Shown in pieces: positions 2,647 to 12,231 of a DNA stretch of 64,000 nt. The notes under the pieces are model-generated. The model was not told where the DNA came from and did not search any database. It saw only the letters and a program-made list of their open reading frames with translations. The position numbers were made by a program, and so were the translations under genes. The DNA is from Zoogloea sp. (lineage in GTDB: Bacteria > Pseudomonadota > Gammaproteobacteria > Burkholderiales > Rhodocyclaceae), in NCBI RefSeq assembly GCF_023150065.1, contig NZ_JAKLLN010000002.1, positions 1-64,000 of the forward strand. Reading direction: 5' to 3'. The number at the start of each line of letters is the position of its first letter. Position 1 is the stretch's first letter.

Positions 2647-3054
2647 TCAGCGGGGCATGTGAGGGCTCAGGGAGAAGAAGCCCCGTGCCCGGGCCTGTTC
2701 CCCACGGTGAATGATGATGCGGTGGATCAGCCAGCGCCCATCGCGCAGGCGCCAGGCGCGTACGGTCTCGGCATAGGCCAGGGGGCGGCAGCGGTCCGGG
2801 TGGGCCGGGTCCGCATCTTCTTCGAGCACGTAGCAGAACGCGCAGTAGCAGGGCTGCTCGTCTTCGTCCCGGCCGAGGATGCGCGCGGCTTTGACCAGGT
2901 ATTCCTTGTAGTGGTCGAAGTAAAGCGGGGCGACGACCTGGTTGCGCCATTCCGGGGGCAGACCTTCGCTCCAGCGGATGGCGGCCTCGGGGCGGCGTAC
3001 GTGGCCCGGCTTGATGTCGAAATACTGATGTGTGTAGTGCCCGTCGTGCAGCAT
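2647..3054 (-). CDS. Unknown 135-aa protein with a CxCxxC cluster, under a ModE-like operator
   Basis: I do not recognise this family. The product is 135 residues with no signal peptide or membrane segment. It has a dense cysteine cluster (Cys69, Cys71, Cys74, with Cys89 nearby) that could bind a metal, and a C-terminal half ending in a WRLRDGRWLIHRIII-like strand pattern. The ATG at 3054 has an excellent ribosome site (AAAGGAGG, 7 bases upstream). A near-perfect ModE-type inverted repeat sits only 21 bases upstream and overlaps where its promoter must lie. The gene is divergent from the TonB receptor cluster. Context suggests a role in molybdenum homeostasis; the sequence itself does not show the function. 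Confidence 0.7.
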   Translation of the reverse strand: MLHDGHYTHQYFDIKPGHVRRPEAAIRWSEGLPPEWRNQVVAPLYFDHYKEYLVKAARILGRDEDEQPCYCAFCYVLEEDADPAHPDRCRPLAYAETVRAWRLRDGRWLIHRIIIHRGEQARARGFFSLSPHMPR

Positions 3055-3074
3055 GGTGCGCCTCCTTTTGCAAT

Positions 3075-3100
3075 TCGATGTATAGATTGGTATATATCGA
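3075..3100. promoter_or_regulatory. ModE-like operator 1
   Basis: CGATGTATA, six bases (gattgg), then TATATATCG. Including the outer T/A, 9 of 10 arm positions pair. This fits the CG-N-TATATA / TATATA-N-CG pattern of ModE boxes. It lies 21 bases before the unknown 135-aa gene and overlaps its likely -10 region, so repression is the natural reading. Confidence 0.7.
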
Positions 3101-3254
3101 AATAAGCATGCTGCGTGCCTGCTGGAAGCCTGGTTTGGCGCGTCCATGTTCTGCGCTGTCGGGCGTGATATTAAGGCGGATATGAAAAGCCTTGTACGCG
3201 TGAGGTGATTCCAGGCTTTGTATCAAACCCTTCATTTTGTAAGGGTTCGAACAT

Positions 3255-3278
3255 CGATATGTAGTTTTGTATATAGCT
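3255..3278. promoter_or_regulatory. ModE-like operator 2
   Basis: CGATATGTA, six bases (gttttg), then TATATAGCT. Arm symmetry is 6 of 9, with the same six-base spacer as operator 1. It lies in the middle of the divergent region, 141 bases before the TonB receptor start. Confidence 0.55.
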
Positions 3279-3369
3279 GTTTTGGGAAGGGGGCTGCGTT
3301 TCGCCAGTGTGCTGGCGGATCGGCTGTAGTGGGCATGCGGGTTGCTAATCCCGCATCGGTGATGTTCTT

Positions 3370-8843: not shown

Positions 8844-9671
8844 ATGACTACCCGACGCCCCGTTCAGCACAAGCTTGTCGGAAAGCTGACAGTCGATACC
8901 GAGTTCGGTACTTTCCTGGGCGACACCCGGATCCGCCTGCTGGAGGCCATCGACCGTTATGGCTCCATCTCCCAGGCGGCGAAGGCCGTGCCCCTGTCCT
9001 ACAAGGCGGCCTGGGATGCCGTGGACGCGATGAACAACCTGGCCGAGGCGCCGCTGGTGGAGCGCTCGGTGGGCGGCAAGCATGGGGGCGGCACCAGCCT
9101 CACCGACTACGGGCGGCGGGTGATCGCCATGTATCGGGCGGTGGAGCAAGAGTACCAGCAGGCCATCGATCGCCTGTCGTCGCGGCTGGGTGAGGGGGGC
9201 GAGACCAATGTGCGCCAGTTCCAGACCCTGCTCCGGCGCATGTCGATGCGCACCAGCGCCCGCAATCAGTTCGTGGGCACCGTGTCGGGCCTGCGTGAAG
9301 GAGAGGTCAGCTTCGAGGTCCGCGTCCGCCTGGACGACGCCAACGAGGTGGTGGCGGTGATCACCCGGGCCAGCGCCGAGAACCTGGAGCTGGGTATCGG
9401 CAGCGAGGTGCACGCCTTCGTCAAGGCGCCGTCGGTGCTGATCATCACCGACCCTCAGACCCGCACCACTGCCCGCAATCACCTGTGGGGGGAGGTTACG
9501 GCCATCCACGAGGGGCCGGTGAGCTCCGAGGTGACCATCACCCTGCCCAGCGGCCGCAACATCACCTCGGTGGTGACCCACGACAGCATCGGCATTCTGG
9601 ACCTCCAGGTGGGCAGCATGGCCTGCGCGGTGTTCCAGGCCACCTCGGTGATCCTCGCCGTTTTCGATTGA
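8844..9671 (+). CDS. modE: Molybdate-responsive transcriptional regulator ModE
   Basis: A 275-residue repressor/activator of molybdenum genes. The N-terminal winged helix-turn-helix (about 20-95) has the LysR-like pattern [20 protein letters not shown] and [10 protein letters not shown], then [14 protein letters not shown]. Two Mop domains follow (about 137-203 and 208-275), opening with TSARNQFVG and TTARNHLWG, which bind molybdate and close the dimer on DNA. This is full-length E. coli-type ModE. The ATG at 8844 follows AGGACAATTG; a TTG at 8841 is in frame and cannot be excluded. The gene leads the modEABC operon, 26 bases before modA. Confidence 0.95.
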
Positions 9672-9697
9672 ATTTCAACGCTTCCAGGAGCCAGACC

Positions 9698-10465
9698 ATG
9701 CCGTTCGCCATGAAACCCGTCTTTCGTCGCCTTGCCCTCTTTGCCGTGCTCGCCGGTGCCGCCCTGACGGCCCGTGCCGAGGAGGTCTCGGTGGCGGTGG
9801 CTGCCAATTTCACCGCGCCGATGCAGAAGATCGCCGCCGAGTTCGAGAAGGCCACCGGCCACAAGGCCCAGCTGATCTTCGGCTCCACGGGCAAGTTCTA
9901 CGCCCAGATCAAGTCCGGGGCGCCCTTCCAGCTGCTGCTGGCGGCCGACGACGAGACCCCGACGAAGCTGGTGAAGGAGGGCGACGGCGTGGCCGGCAGC
10001 CAGTTCACCTACGCCATCGGCAAGCTGGTGTTGTGGTCGCCGAAGCCGGGCTTTGTTGACGACAAGGGCGAGGTGCTCAAGGGCGGCAGGTTCGAGCACC
10101 TCTCCATTGCCAACCCCAAGCTGGCGCCCTACGGCCTGGCCGCCACCGAGACCCTGAAGGCGCTCGGCGTGGCGGACAGCCTGCAGTCGAAGATCGTCAT
10201 GGGCGAAAGCATCACCCAGGCCCAGCAGTTCGTCACTTCGGGCAGCGCGGAGCTGGGCTTCATCGCCTTCTCCCAGATCCACAAGGACGGCAAACTGATC
10301 GATGGCTCCTACTGGCTGGTGCCGGCCCGCCATTACAGTCAGATCCGCCAGGACGCAGTGGTGCTGGCCCGGGGCAAGGGCAACCCGGCGGTAGAGGCAC
10401 TGGCGGGCTTTCTCCGGTCGAAGACGGCCGCCGACATCATCAAATCCTATGGTTACGATCTCTGA
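9698..10465 (+). CDS. modA: Molybdate ABC transporter periplasmic binding protein ModA
   Basis: A 255-residue periplasmic protein with a Sec signal peptide (about 1-27, ending TARA-EE). The mature start [13 protein letters not shown], then [18 protein letters not shown] and LLAADDETP, are the family's oxyanion-binding segments. It captures molybdate (or tungstate) and hands it to ModBC. The ATG at 9698 has CAGGAGCC 10 bases upstream; a second in-frame ATG at 9710 is possible. It is second in the modEABC operon and 3 bases from modB. Confidence 0.95.
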
Positions 10466-10468
10466 GCA

Positions 10469-11158
10469 ATGCACCTGAGCGCGGATGACTGGTCGGCGAT
10501 CCGGCTGACCCTGGAACTGGCCAGCATCGTCACGGTGCTGCTGCTGATCATCGGCACGCCGATCGCTTGGTGGCTGGCGCGGAGCCGCTCTCCGCTGCGC
10601 GGTGTGGTGGGGGCGATCGTCTCCCTGCCCATCGTCCTGCCCCCCACCGTGCTGGGCTTTTACCTGCTGGTACTGATGGGGCCGCAGGGGGCCGTCGGAC
10701 GTTTCACCGAGGCGCTCGGCCTGGGGCGCCTGCCCTTCACCTTCCCGGGGCTGGTGGTGGCCTCCATCCTGTATTCCCTGCCCTTTGTGGTGCAGCCGGT
10801 GCAGAACGCCTTCATGGCCATGGGGGATCGGCCCCTGGAGGTGGCGGCCACCCTGCGCGCCTCTCCGCTGCGGACATTCTTCACCGTCGCCTTGCCCCTC
10901 GCCCGGCCCGGTTTCATCACGGCGGCCATTCTGGGTTTTGCCCATACCGTCGGGGAGTTCGGCGTGGTGCTGATGATCGGCGGCAACATCCCCGACAAGA
11001 CCCGGGTGATCTCCATGCAGATCTACAACCACGTGGAGGCGCTGGAGTATGGGCAGGCCCACGGGCTGGCGGCGTTGCTGCTCGGCTTCTCGTTTGTGGT
11101 GCTGCTGGCGCTGTACACGGTGGGTGGCGCCCGCAACACCCTGGGGGCCGGGCGATGA
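10469..11158 (+). CDS. modB: Molybdate ABC transporter permease ModB
   Basis: A 229-residue inner-membrane permease with five to six hydrophobic helices. It starts with a helix-rich N-terminus ([21 protein letters not shown]) and has the [14 protein letters not shown] segment typical of ModB/CysT permeases. The cytoplasmic EAA loop is [20 protein letters not shown], the contact for ModC. Its stop overlaps the modC start by four bases (ATGA), so the two subunits are translationally coupled. Confidence 0.95.
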
Positions 11159-12231
11159 ACGGCGTGCATGTGGCCTGCCGCCTGCCTCTGGCGGACTTCG
11201 TGCTGGAGGCCGATCTGACCCTGCCCGGGCGTGGTGTGACGGCGCTGTTCGGCCCCTCCGGTTCCGGCAAGACCACCCTGCTGCGCTGTGTGGCCGGGCT
11301 GGCCCGCGGAGCGGGGCGGGTGGAGATCAACGGCGAATGCTGGCAGGACGACGCCCGGCGCCTCTTCCTGCCGACGCACCGGCGTGCCCTGGGCTACGTC
11401 TTCCAGGAGGCCAGCCTGTTTGCCCATCTGTCAGTGCGGGCCAACCTGGAGTTCGGCCTGAAGCGTATCCCGGCGGCGGAGCGCAAGGTGGGCTGGGACG
11501 CGGCGCTTGAACTGCTGGGGATTGGCCACCTGCTGGAGCGGGGCACCGAAGCCCTGTCCGGTGGCGAGCGCCAGCGGGTGGCGATCGCCCGGGCCCTGCT
11601 CACCAGCCCGCGCCTGCTGCTGATGGACGAGCCCCTGGCTGCCCTCGACGCCAGGCGCAAGCACGAGATCCTGCCCTACCTCGAGCGTCTGCATGACGAG
11701 CTGGCGATTCCGGTGCTGTACGTGAGCCACTCGCCGGACGAGGTGGCCCGCCTGGCCGATCACCTGGTGCTGCTGGAGCAGGGGAAGGTGCTGGCCAGCG
11801 GCCCCACCGGCGAGGTGCTGACCCGCCTCGACCTGCCCCTGGCCCGGGACGAGGAGGCCGCCGTGCGGGTGGATGCCCATGTGCTCTCCCATGACGACGC
11901 TTACCAGCTGACCTGCCTGGGCTTTGCCGGCGGCCACATCCAGGTGACCCGCAAGGCGCTTGCCGTCGGGGCCAGGGCGCGGATCAAGATCCAGGCGCGG
12001 GACGTGAGCATCGCCCTGGCCGGCGACAACCGTTCGAGCATCGTCAATCGTCTGCCGGCGCGCATTGTGGGGTTTGGAGACGCCGCCCATCCGGCCCAGT
12101 GTCTGGTCAGCCTGGACGTCGCCGGAACCCCCCTGCTGGCGCGGATCACCCATCTTTCCCGGGATCAGCTCGGGCTGGTCGAGGGCATGACGGTCGTGGC
12201 GCAGATCAAGTCGGTGGCGCTGTTGGGTTGA
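11155..12231 (+). CDS. modC: Molybdate ABC transporter ATP-binding protein ModC
   Basis: A 358-residue ABC ATPase that powers ModB. Walker A is GPSGSGKTT (33-41), the ABC signature LSGGERQ (134-140), Walker B LLLMDEP (154-160) and the switch histidine lies in [11 protein letters not shown]-terminal Mop/TOBE domain (about 290-357) should sense cytoplasmic molybdate and inhibit transport when replete. The ATG at 11155 overlaps modB. No terminator-like hairpin follows within the 109 bases before the chemoreceptor gene. Confidence 0.95.

Follow-up and report, generated by a model that had tools for sequence, protein, structure and literature searches.

Molybdenum is usually thought to cross the outer membrane passively through pores. 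A 64,000-nucleotide stretch of a Zoogloea sp. genome (contig NZ_JAKLLN010000002.1, positions 1 to 64,000; hereafter the window) raises the question of whether an energised route exists besides, since the genes of a TonB-dependent receptor (TBDR), a periplasmic solute-binding protein (SBP) and a di-haem oxidoreductase (DHOR) lie here next to mop-modE-modABC, and boxes resembling the binding site of the molybdate-responsive regulator ModE precede the receptor gene. According to the comparative genome analysis described below, the receptor probably takes a molybdenum (or tungsten) species across the outer membrane, with TonB as the driving force and ModE as the repressor. From the architecture of the locus and its counterparts we infer repression by ModE, dependence on TonB, molybdenum as the cargo and a redox or release function of the DHOR. 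The initial annotation had already proposed an energy-driven entry of molybdate or a molybdenum chelate, with periplasmic capture and a possible redox step; the linkage and the ModE-type boxes proved to be conserved, while the ligand, its capture by the SBP and the redox step of the DHOR keep the status of predictions.

The linkage of the receptor to mod genes was compared among several sets of loci. The first derives from 150 genomes of the same bacterial family, the window's own included, 20 of which encode a TBDR homologue at E<=1e-40 (21 loci counting the window) and for which 20 neighbourhoods were fetched. The second, termed named loci, comprises the best 80 of at least 570 relatives found by a GTDB genome scan using receptor peptides alone; these loci total 1.59 Mb and are nearly all beta- and gammaproteobacterial. 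As a control, 17 neighbourhoods were fetched around relatives of the window's other TBDR (15991-17997, minus strand) from the same bacterial family. Clear mod, modE or mop genes accompany the receptor in 15 of the 20 family loci, as opposed to one of the 17 control loci under the same thresholds, and clear mod-type genes occur in the fetched flanks of 44 of the 80 named loci, in 38 of them within 5 kb. With a clear mod gene, a ModE-type box scoring 14/20 or more ahead of the TBDR, or both as the criterion, 70 of the 80 named loci qualify. On the other hand, none of 14 other TBDR regions of the window's own genome lies near mod genes; the fifteenth other TBDR, that at 15991-17997, stands outside this set, being located less than 4 kb from modC. 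The lone control locus near mod genes belongs to a genome of the same genus (G036), which is devoid of a match to the focal TBDR at E<=1e-40 and carries modA and modB near the control TBDR. The 14 regions and the 17 control loci together rule out that any TBDR would do, and the conserved linkage to mod genes in relatives, which the initial annotation had set as a test, was thus found. The thresholds of identity for a clear mod gene were fixed after the hit table was known and then kept as they were for the family set and the controls; moreover, the queries for a second ModA and ModB, taken from loci L033 and L041, match themselves, though each of these loci also passes with the sequence of the other, and some loci, controls among them, are shortened by contig ends. 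The hosts of the named loci include Zoogloea, Rhodoferax, Comamonas, Delftia, Stenotrophomonas, Alcaligenes, Pseudomonas, Janthinobacterium and Duganella as well as Dechloromonas/Azonexus, Pandoraea, Acinetobacter, purple sulfur bacteria and others, with two of the best TBDR matches stemming from metagenome-assembled genomes of Zoogloea (89-90% identity).

The second line of evidence is provided by the boxes, which were scored out of 20 against the pattern ATCGNTATATA-N6-TATATANCGAT, the consensus of the Escherichia coli ModE as printed in PMC545781. When the core pattern is searched with at most three mismatches, the whole 5.24 Mb genome yields five sites, three of them at the TBDR-mod locus, compared with three sites for the reversed pattern; the core at 3076-3099, with one mismatch, is the best core site of the genome, and a fourth of the five sites precedes the gene of a DUF2325 protein. 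Across loci, a box of at least 14/20 precedes the TBDR in 54 of 78 named loci, as compared with 28 of 1960 random stretches of the loci and none of the 17 control TBDR loci. Among 98 TBDR upstream regions (the window, 78 of the 80 named and 19 of the 20 family loci, a sum that probably counts two contigs twice, namely L031/L099 and L032/L090, each pair with contigs of equal length), 64 carry a box of at least 15/20 with the exact six-base gap, as opposed to 19 of 1960 stretches taken at random from these loci, and at 17/20 the ratio becomes 28 of 98 to 0 of 1960. Perfect boxes of 20/20 occur in two loci, L106 and L124. A chance motif is ruled out by the random stretches, by dinucleotide shuffles and by the genome-wide search, and given these controls a chance association is unlikely.

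The distribution of the boxes centres on the receptor. Of the 107 boxes of at least 15/20 in the named loci, 61 belong to the TBDR, 10 to orf135 (the 135-residue frame divergent from the receptor gene), 7 to modE, 5 to a second modA, 2 to mop and 4 to other tested genes, the remaining 18 being assigned to none of the tested genes. By contrast, no such box stands directly upstream of the SBP (0/26), the DHOR (0/25) or a DUF2478 gene (0/27) in the named loci, as expected if these genes lay inside an operon that begins with the TBDR. In the window, the TBDR stop is separated from the SBP start at 5481 by ten bases and the DHOR start overlaps the SBP stop, and therefore TBDR, SBP and DHOR probably constitute a single operon. 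The claim that ModE-like boxes precede both gene groups held for the interval between orf135 and the TBDR, which contains two boxes of 17/20, and less so for modE, the box of which reaches 13/20 in the window and is close to noise, because two sites of 13/20 without relation to the locus occur within the 64 kb; in close relatives the box before modE scores slightly higher, at 14-15/20.

The receptors themselves form a coherent family. All 81 group in one clade (support 0.991) apart from the own genome's 15 other TBDRs and from two of a second type, which is partly expected because the 81 were picked by similarity. Following the signal peptide, the receptor of the window displays the TonB-box-like segment FELGTVEV, and the corresponding N-terminal signature FxLGx[IV]xV, which resembles a TonB box, is found in 76 of 81 family members as compared with 1 of 17 other TBDRs; two of the five receptors without it are N-terminally truncated. 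A second, different TBDR type also recurs in molybdenum clusters (L029 5608-7911, minus strand; L043 11558-13888), in places together with Peripla_BP_2, FecCD or SBP_bac_11 genes, and may take a different chelate.

In contrast to the receptor, its partners vary. At least part of one of three modules lies downstream or nearby in 79 of the 80 named loci: the SBP-DHOR pair, a DUF2478/Peripla_BP_2/FecCD set, with FecCD or Peripla_BP_2 genes after the TBDR in 27 of 80, or a small molybdopterin-binding-domain protein (PF00174 in the scanned members), which adjoins it in 28 of 80. The trio of TBDR, SBP and DHOR emphasised in the initial annotation is therefore merely one of several partner sets, with the TBDR as the constant and SBP-DHOR as a variable part, and what recurs is the linkage of the TBDR. 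Further partners are a ModABC paralog immediately ahead of the TBDR in some loci, with the ModA of L033 being closest to solved molybdate-binding proteins, NifQ in 4 of 80 named loci (Pfam match in L041) and a ModD-like quinolinate phosphoribosyltransferase gene. Two CxxCH motifs are present in all 22 aligned DHOR members, four others having been excluded for length. The SBP of the window bears a Tat-like motif, in agreement with its annotation as Tat-exported, but a Tat leader is not common to all relatives: the pattern was matched by 6 of 24 SBPs, one of them doubtful, whereas others have an arginine pair missed by the pattern and several have none. Signal peptides were judged throughout by eye or by simple pattern, and gene starts in the compared loci were set mechanically. 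The small PF00174-type proteins (L043, L078, L083, L087, L096, L121 and others) contain a truncated sulfite-oxidase-like domain and, as judged by eye, a Sec-type leader, and in some loci (L041) the PF00174 domain is fused to cytochrome c. The cysteine of the VC.SGA motif is a ligand of molybdenum; by eye, it is missing in the proteins of Janthinobacterium, some Duganella and an Acinetobacter member, for which reason the PF00174-type proteins are suspected of binding rather than catalysis.

A further companion is orf135, homologues of which occur in 7 of the 80 named TBDR loci and in some family loci, whereas among 274 genomes drawn from the whole class the own genome was the only one with it. 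A box of at least 15/20 precedes it in six of seven scored relatives. Its product yields no Pfam or NCBIfam match, the AlphaFold model has a mean predicted local distance difference test (pLDDT) score of 76.8, and the best fold match in the PDB (E 0.29) is, like the others, not convincing; orf135 is a lineage-specific companion of the receptor. In the same-genus locus L029, TonB and ExbB (Pfam) come after orf135, and ExbD-like and FecCD-like frames (by eye) after these; there, a 14/20 box (2797) stands in front of orf135, and another of 16/20 (2633) extends over the first codons of orf135 and may be a coding coincidence.

These elements suggest the following circuit. When cytoplasmic molybdate is plentiful, ModE would occupy the boxes at 3074-3101 and 3253-3280 and thereby switch off the TBDR-SBP-DHOR operon together with the divergent orf135, as deduced from the position of the boxes. 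Once molybdenum falls, the receptor would be produced and the energy of TonB-ExbBD would move a scarce molybdenum species across the outer membrane, candidates being molybdate, tungstate or a molybdenum chelate. Subsequent handling in the periplasm would be the task of SBP and DHOR in this organism; in relatives, a FecCD-type importer, a protein resembling sulfite oxidase or a second ModABC would take over. A step that releases the metal would be in keeping with the haem and PF00174 modules. Final entry of the oxyanion through the inner membrane would here proceed via ModABC. Such a receptor might be needed at very low molybdenum, or for molybdenum bound by catechols or sulfide. As to the demand for the metal, nifH is detected above its cut-off in the genome and narG is not, so that nitrogen fixation is more likely the relevant process than NarG-type nitrate respiration.

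Several observations weigh against this interpretation. Since molybdate fits through porins, free molybdate may not need a receptor at all. Within 450 bases upstream, boxes of at least 15/20 were found for 7 of 15 mop genes but for only 15 of 39 modE genes and none of 17 modA genes in the named loci, and with so few modE and no modA boxes the motif is tied to ModE mainly via the published consensus. Clear mod genes are missing from 5 of the 20 family loci, four of which have a box of at least 14/20, and 10 of the 80 named loci show, under the thresholds applied, neither a clear mod gene nor a box, two of these having a box 1 kb further upstream. Enrichment of TonB/ExbB genes near the receptors is unsupported: they accompany family TBDRs in 10 of 100 loci and the own genome's other TBDRs in 1 of 14, which is no clear difference. 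Nor does the receptor track nifH, which is present in 10 of 20 genomes with and 49 of 130 without the TBDR (p 0.33). Exploratory post hoc splits gave associations of the SBP-DHOR-type subset with nifH (9 of 11 against 50 of 139, p 0.007) and of receptors without SBP-DHOR with narG (6 of 9 against 40 of 141, p 0.02). In addition, FecCD-type importers and an SBP of FbpA/AfuA fold, both usual for iron or organic ligands, are found among the partners.

The last point leads to the main rival, an iron cargo under ModE control, in which case the receptor would take up a ferric chelate or siderophore in molybdenum shortage, for instance to feed iron-rich or alternative nitrogenases. Its closest relatives of known structure by profile, the colicin I receptor as the best match and siderophore receptors as other good ones, are compatible with this explanation, as are the FecCD or Peripla_BP_2 genes of the 27 loci mentioned above and the fold neighbours of the SBP. 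The AlphaFold model of the latter (pLDDT 90.3) adopts the AfuA/ferric-binding fold with a helical C-terminal part, and Foldseek matched it to an AfuA-type protein (E 1.8e-17) and a ferric-binding protein (E 5.8e-15) at template modelling (TM) scores of about 0.5-0.6 by query length. In FbpA-type SBPs, Fe(III) is bound by a pair of tyrosines. However, in the profile alignment the tyrosine-rich segment of the Moraxella ferric-binding protein 7li0 lies opposite D235-F236-F237, a triplet invariant in 24 sequences, and on account of this replacement the SBP is unlikely to bind Fe(III) in the manner of FbpA: the fold of a ferric SBP fits, the tyrosine pair is absent. Moreover, many of the same clusters contain a second ModABC, NifQ or ModE, and mean Fur scores upstream of the TBDR (10.8 vs 10.1 of 19) indicate no real enrichment of Fur boxes, with AT-rich promoters alone possibly accounting for the difference. 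Control by Fur alone, also set as a test in the initial annotation, is at odds with the box patterns, which resemble ModE rather than Fur control. Altogether, we consider an iron cargo rather unlikely.

Still less probable is the import of a pterin or a molecule like the molybdenum cofactor instead of a metal ion, with the sulfite-oxidase-like protein and the DHOR binding or processing the cofactor. It would account for the PF00174-type protein beside the TBDR in 28 of the 80 loci, but these small proteins, equipped with Sec-type leaders and in several cases lacking the VC.SGA cysteine, need not hold a cofactor, and the clusters containing ModABC argue for an oxyanion. A chance or historical neighbourhood with incidental boxes would agree with the dispensability of the module in the same-genus genome G036, which has modA and modB without a TBDR match, but it is very improbable, given that linkage and boxes recur across many genera with differing partners and gene orders.

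With respect to known systems, the ModE-linked receptor combines familiar and new features. In Haemophilus influenzae, MolBCA corresponds to HI1470-1472. Its likeness to the present clusters consists in a FecCD/BtuCD-type importer with a Peripla_BP_2 protein: the Peripla_BP_2 partner of L043 has 18 solved relatives, including HI_1472 (3psa), which we take to be MolA, the best being the uncharacterised 4pag. We know of no TBDR belonging to MolBCA, and, in contrast to that system, the window harbours no FecCD-type importer beside the TBDR. ZnuD and FrpB4 are TonB-dependent metal transporters with cation or siderophore cargo under Zur, Fur or NikR. The metal TBDRs and the receptor of the window share plug and barrel, a TonB-box-like segment and metal-responsive control, predicted in the case of the latter, which differs by its ModE-type boxes and its partners from molybdate transport. 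Catechol siderophores of Azotobacter vinelandii bind molybdenum and would explain a TBDR for this metal. No siderophore synthesis genes were recognised in the neighbourhoods, where most flanking genes carry no annotation. Azotochelin and protochelin are named as siderophores in the available part of PMC10669500, and OprC and MnoT are listed among metal TonB-dependent transporters in that of PMC8602904.

ModABC and ModE are known in several bacteria, and one other active outer-membrane route is described in the accessible portion of PMC8602904: in Pseudomonas aeruginosa, a ModA secreted by the type VI secretion system (T6SS) acts with IcmP. This route likewise adds an active outer-membrane molybdate step to ModBC, but it employs a secreted binding protein and a peptidase-type outer-membrane protein and no TBDR. 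The ModABC-ModE-Mop regulon of Rhodobacter capsulatus (PMC6925177) and the E. coli box (PMC545781), both as far as these sources are available, share with the window the type of regulator, Mop, ModABC and the box; no outer-membrane member of the regulon is described there, and the terms 'outer membrane' and 'TonB' are absent from the text of PMC6925177. In Comamonas testosteroni, transcripts of modB and of an iron-complex-type permease gene twelve locus numbers apart were both raised in one condition, according to the available section of PMC10781756; as a candidate correspondence, this pair would fit the cluster of L063. A full-text literature search covering few subscription papers returned no ModE-regulated TBDR or TonB-dependent molybdenum uptake. 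The fold of the receptor is familiar, whereas its regulator, its partners and its probable cargo are new.

The features of the locus are compiled in Table 1. The placement of TBDR, SBP and DHOR next to mop-modE-modABC given in the initial annotation was borne out by Pfam and NCBIfam apart from small corrections, such as the TBDR start, for which 3419 is the better choice, preceded by GGGGGAAGGG, which reads like a ribosome-binding site. ModE combines a DNA-binding and a Mop domain, and ModA, ModB and ModC additionally matched PRK equivalog models below their cut-offs.

Table 1. Genes and ModE-type boxes of the receptor-mod locus, in window positions.
Feature	Position	Strand	Family match or box score
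orf135	2647-3054	-	no Pfam or NCBIfam family
Putative ModE box	3074-3101		17/20
Second putative ModE box, upstream of TBDR	3253-3280		17/20
TBDR	3419-5470	+	PF00593 130 bits, PF07715 63 bits, above cut-offs
SBP, SBP_bac_6 periplasmic binding protein	5481-6782	+	Pfam; Tat-like SRRAFM motif
DHOR	6779-8116	+	PF06537 267 bits; two CxxCH
ModE-like box between convergent DHOR and mop ends	8157-8184		15/20
mop, two molybdate-binding Mop domains	8266-8694	-	TIGR00638 above cut-off
Weak ModE-like box before modE	8812-8839		13/20
modE, molybdate-responsive regulator	8844-9671	+	TIGR00637 and TIGR00638 above cut-off
modA, molybdate-binding protein	9698-10465	+	TIGR01256 above cut-off
modB, permease	10469-11158	+	TIGR02141 above cut-off
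modC, ATPase	11155-12231	+	TIGR02142 above cut-off

The box between the convergent ends of DHOR and mop stands in front of no gene. Counterparts of 14-16/20 occur in L029 (13054), L050 (14906) and L051 (4282), L052 has no box of at least 14/20 at this junction, and a GC-rich inverted repeat lies near the box in the window; the junction box may serve as a roadblock, in antisense control or as an element of an unseen transcript. Elsewhere in the own genome, a 17/20 ModE-like box precedes the gene of a DUF2325 protein (L148:7239-7266, equivalent to C55:86238-86265), with a WYL domain encoded in a frame further downstream, so that this gene is predicted as a possible new ModE target. Immediately downstream of modC, a PAS-MCP chemotaxis receptor and a protein of three CheW domains are encoded at 12281-15966. 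A search of the window with Rfam at gathering cut-offs for a molybdenum cofactor (Moco) or other riboswitch returned only a tRNA.

Beyond the single locus, there is an even chance, in our estimation, that these receptors represent a large, undescribed family for TonB-powered import of group 6 metals (molybdenum or tungsten) under ModE, with interchangeable periplasmic handlers; among these, a redox protein with haem and a sulfite-oxidase domain turned to a new use may detach the metal from a chelate or from sulfide. Comparative genomics thereby turns a single-locus guess into a family-level prediction and offers a possible function for many receptors that otherwise pass as siderophore receptors (at least 570 relatives, of which the best 80 were examined). 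The genera covered include Zoogloea, Dechloromonas/Azonexus, Comamonas, Janthinobacterium, Duganella and Pseudomonas, all with cultured members, which renders the prediction testable at once. Scarce molybdenum can hold back both the fixation of nitrogen and the respiration of nitrate in waters and soils and, if the prediction is true, models of molybdenum limitation and of molybdenum-binding siderophores would gain their missing transporter.

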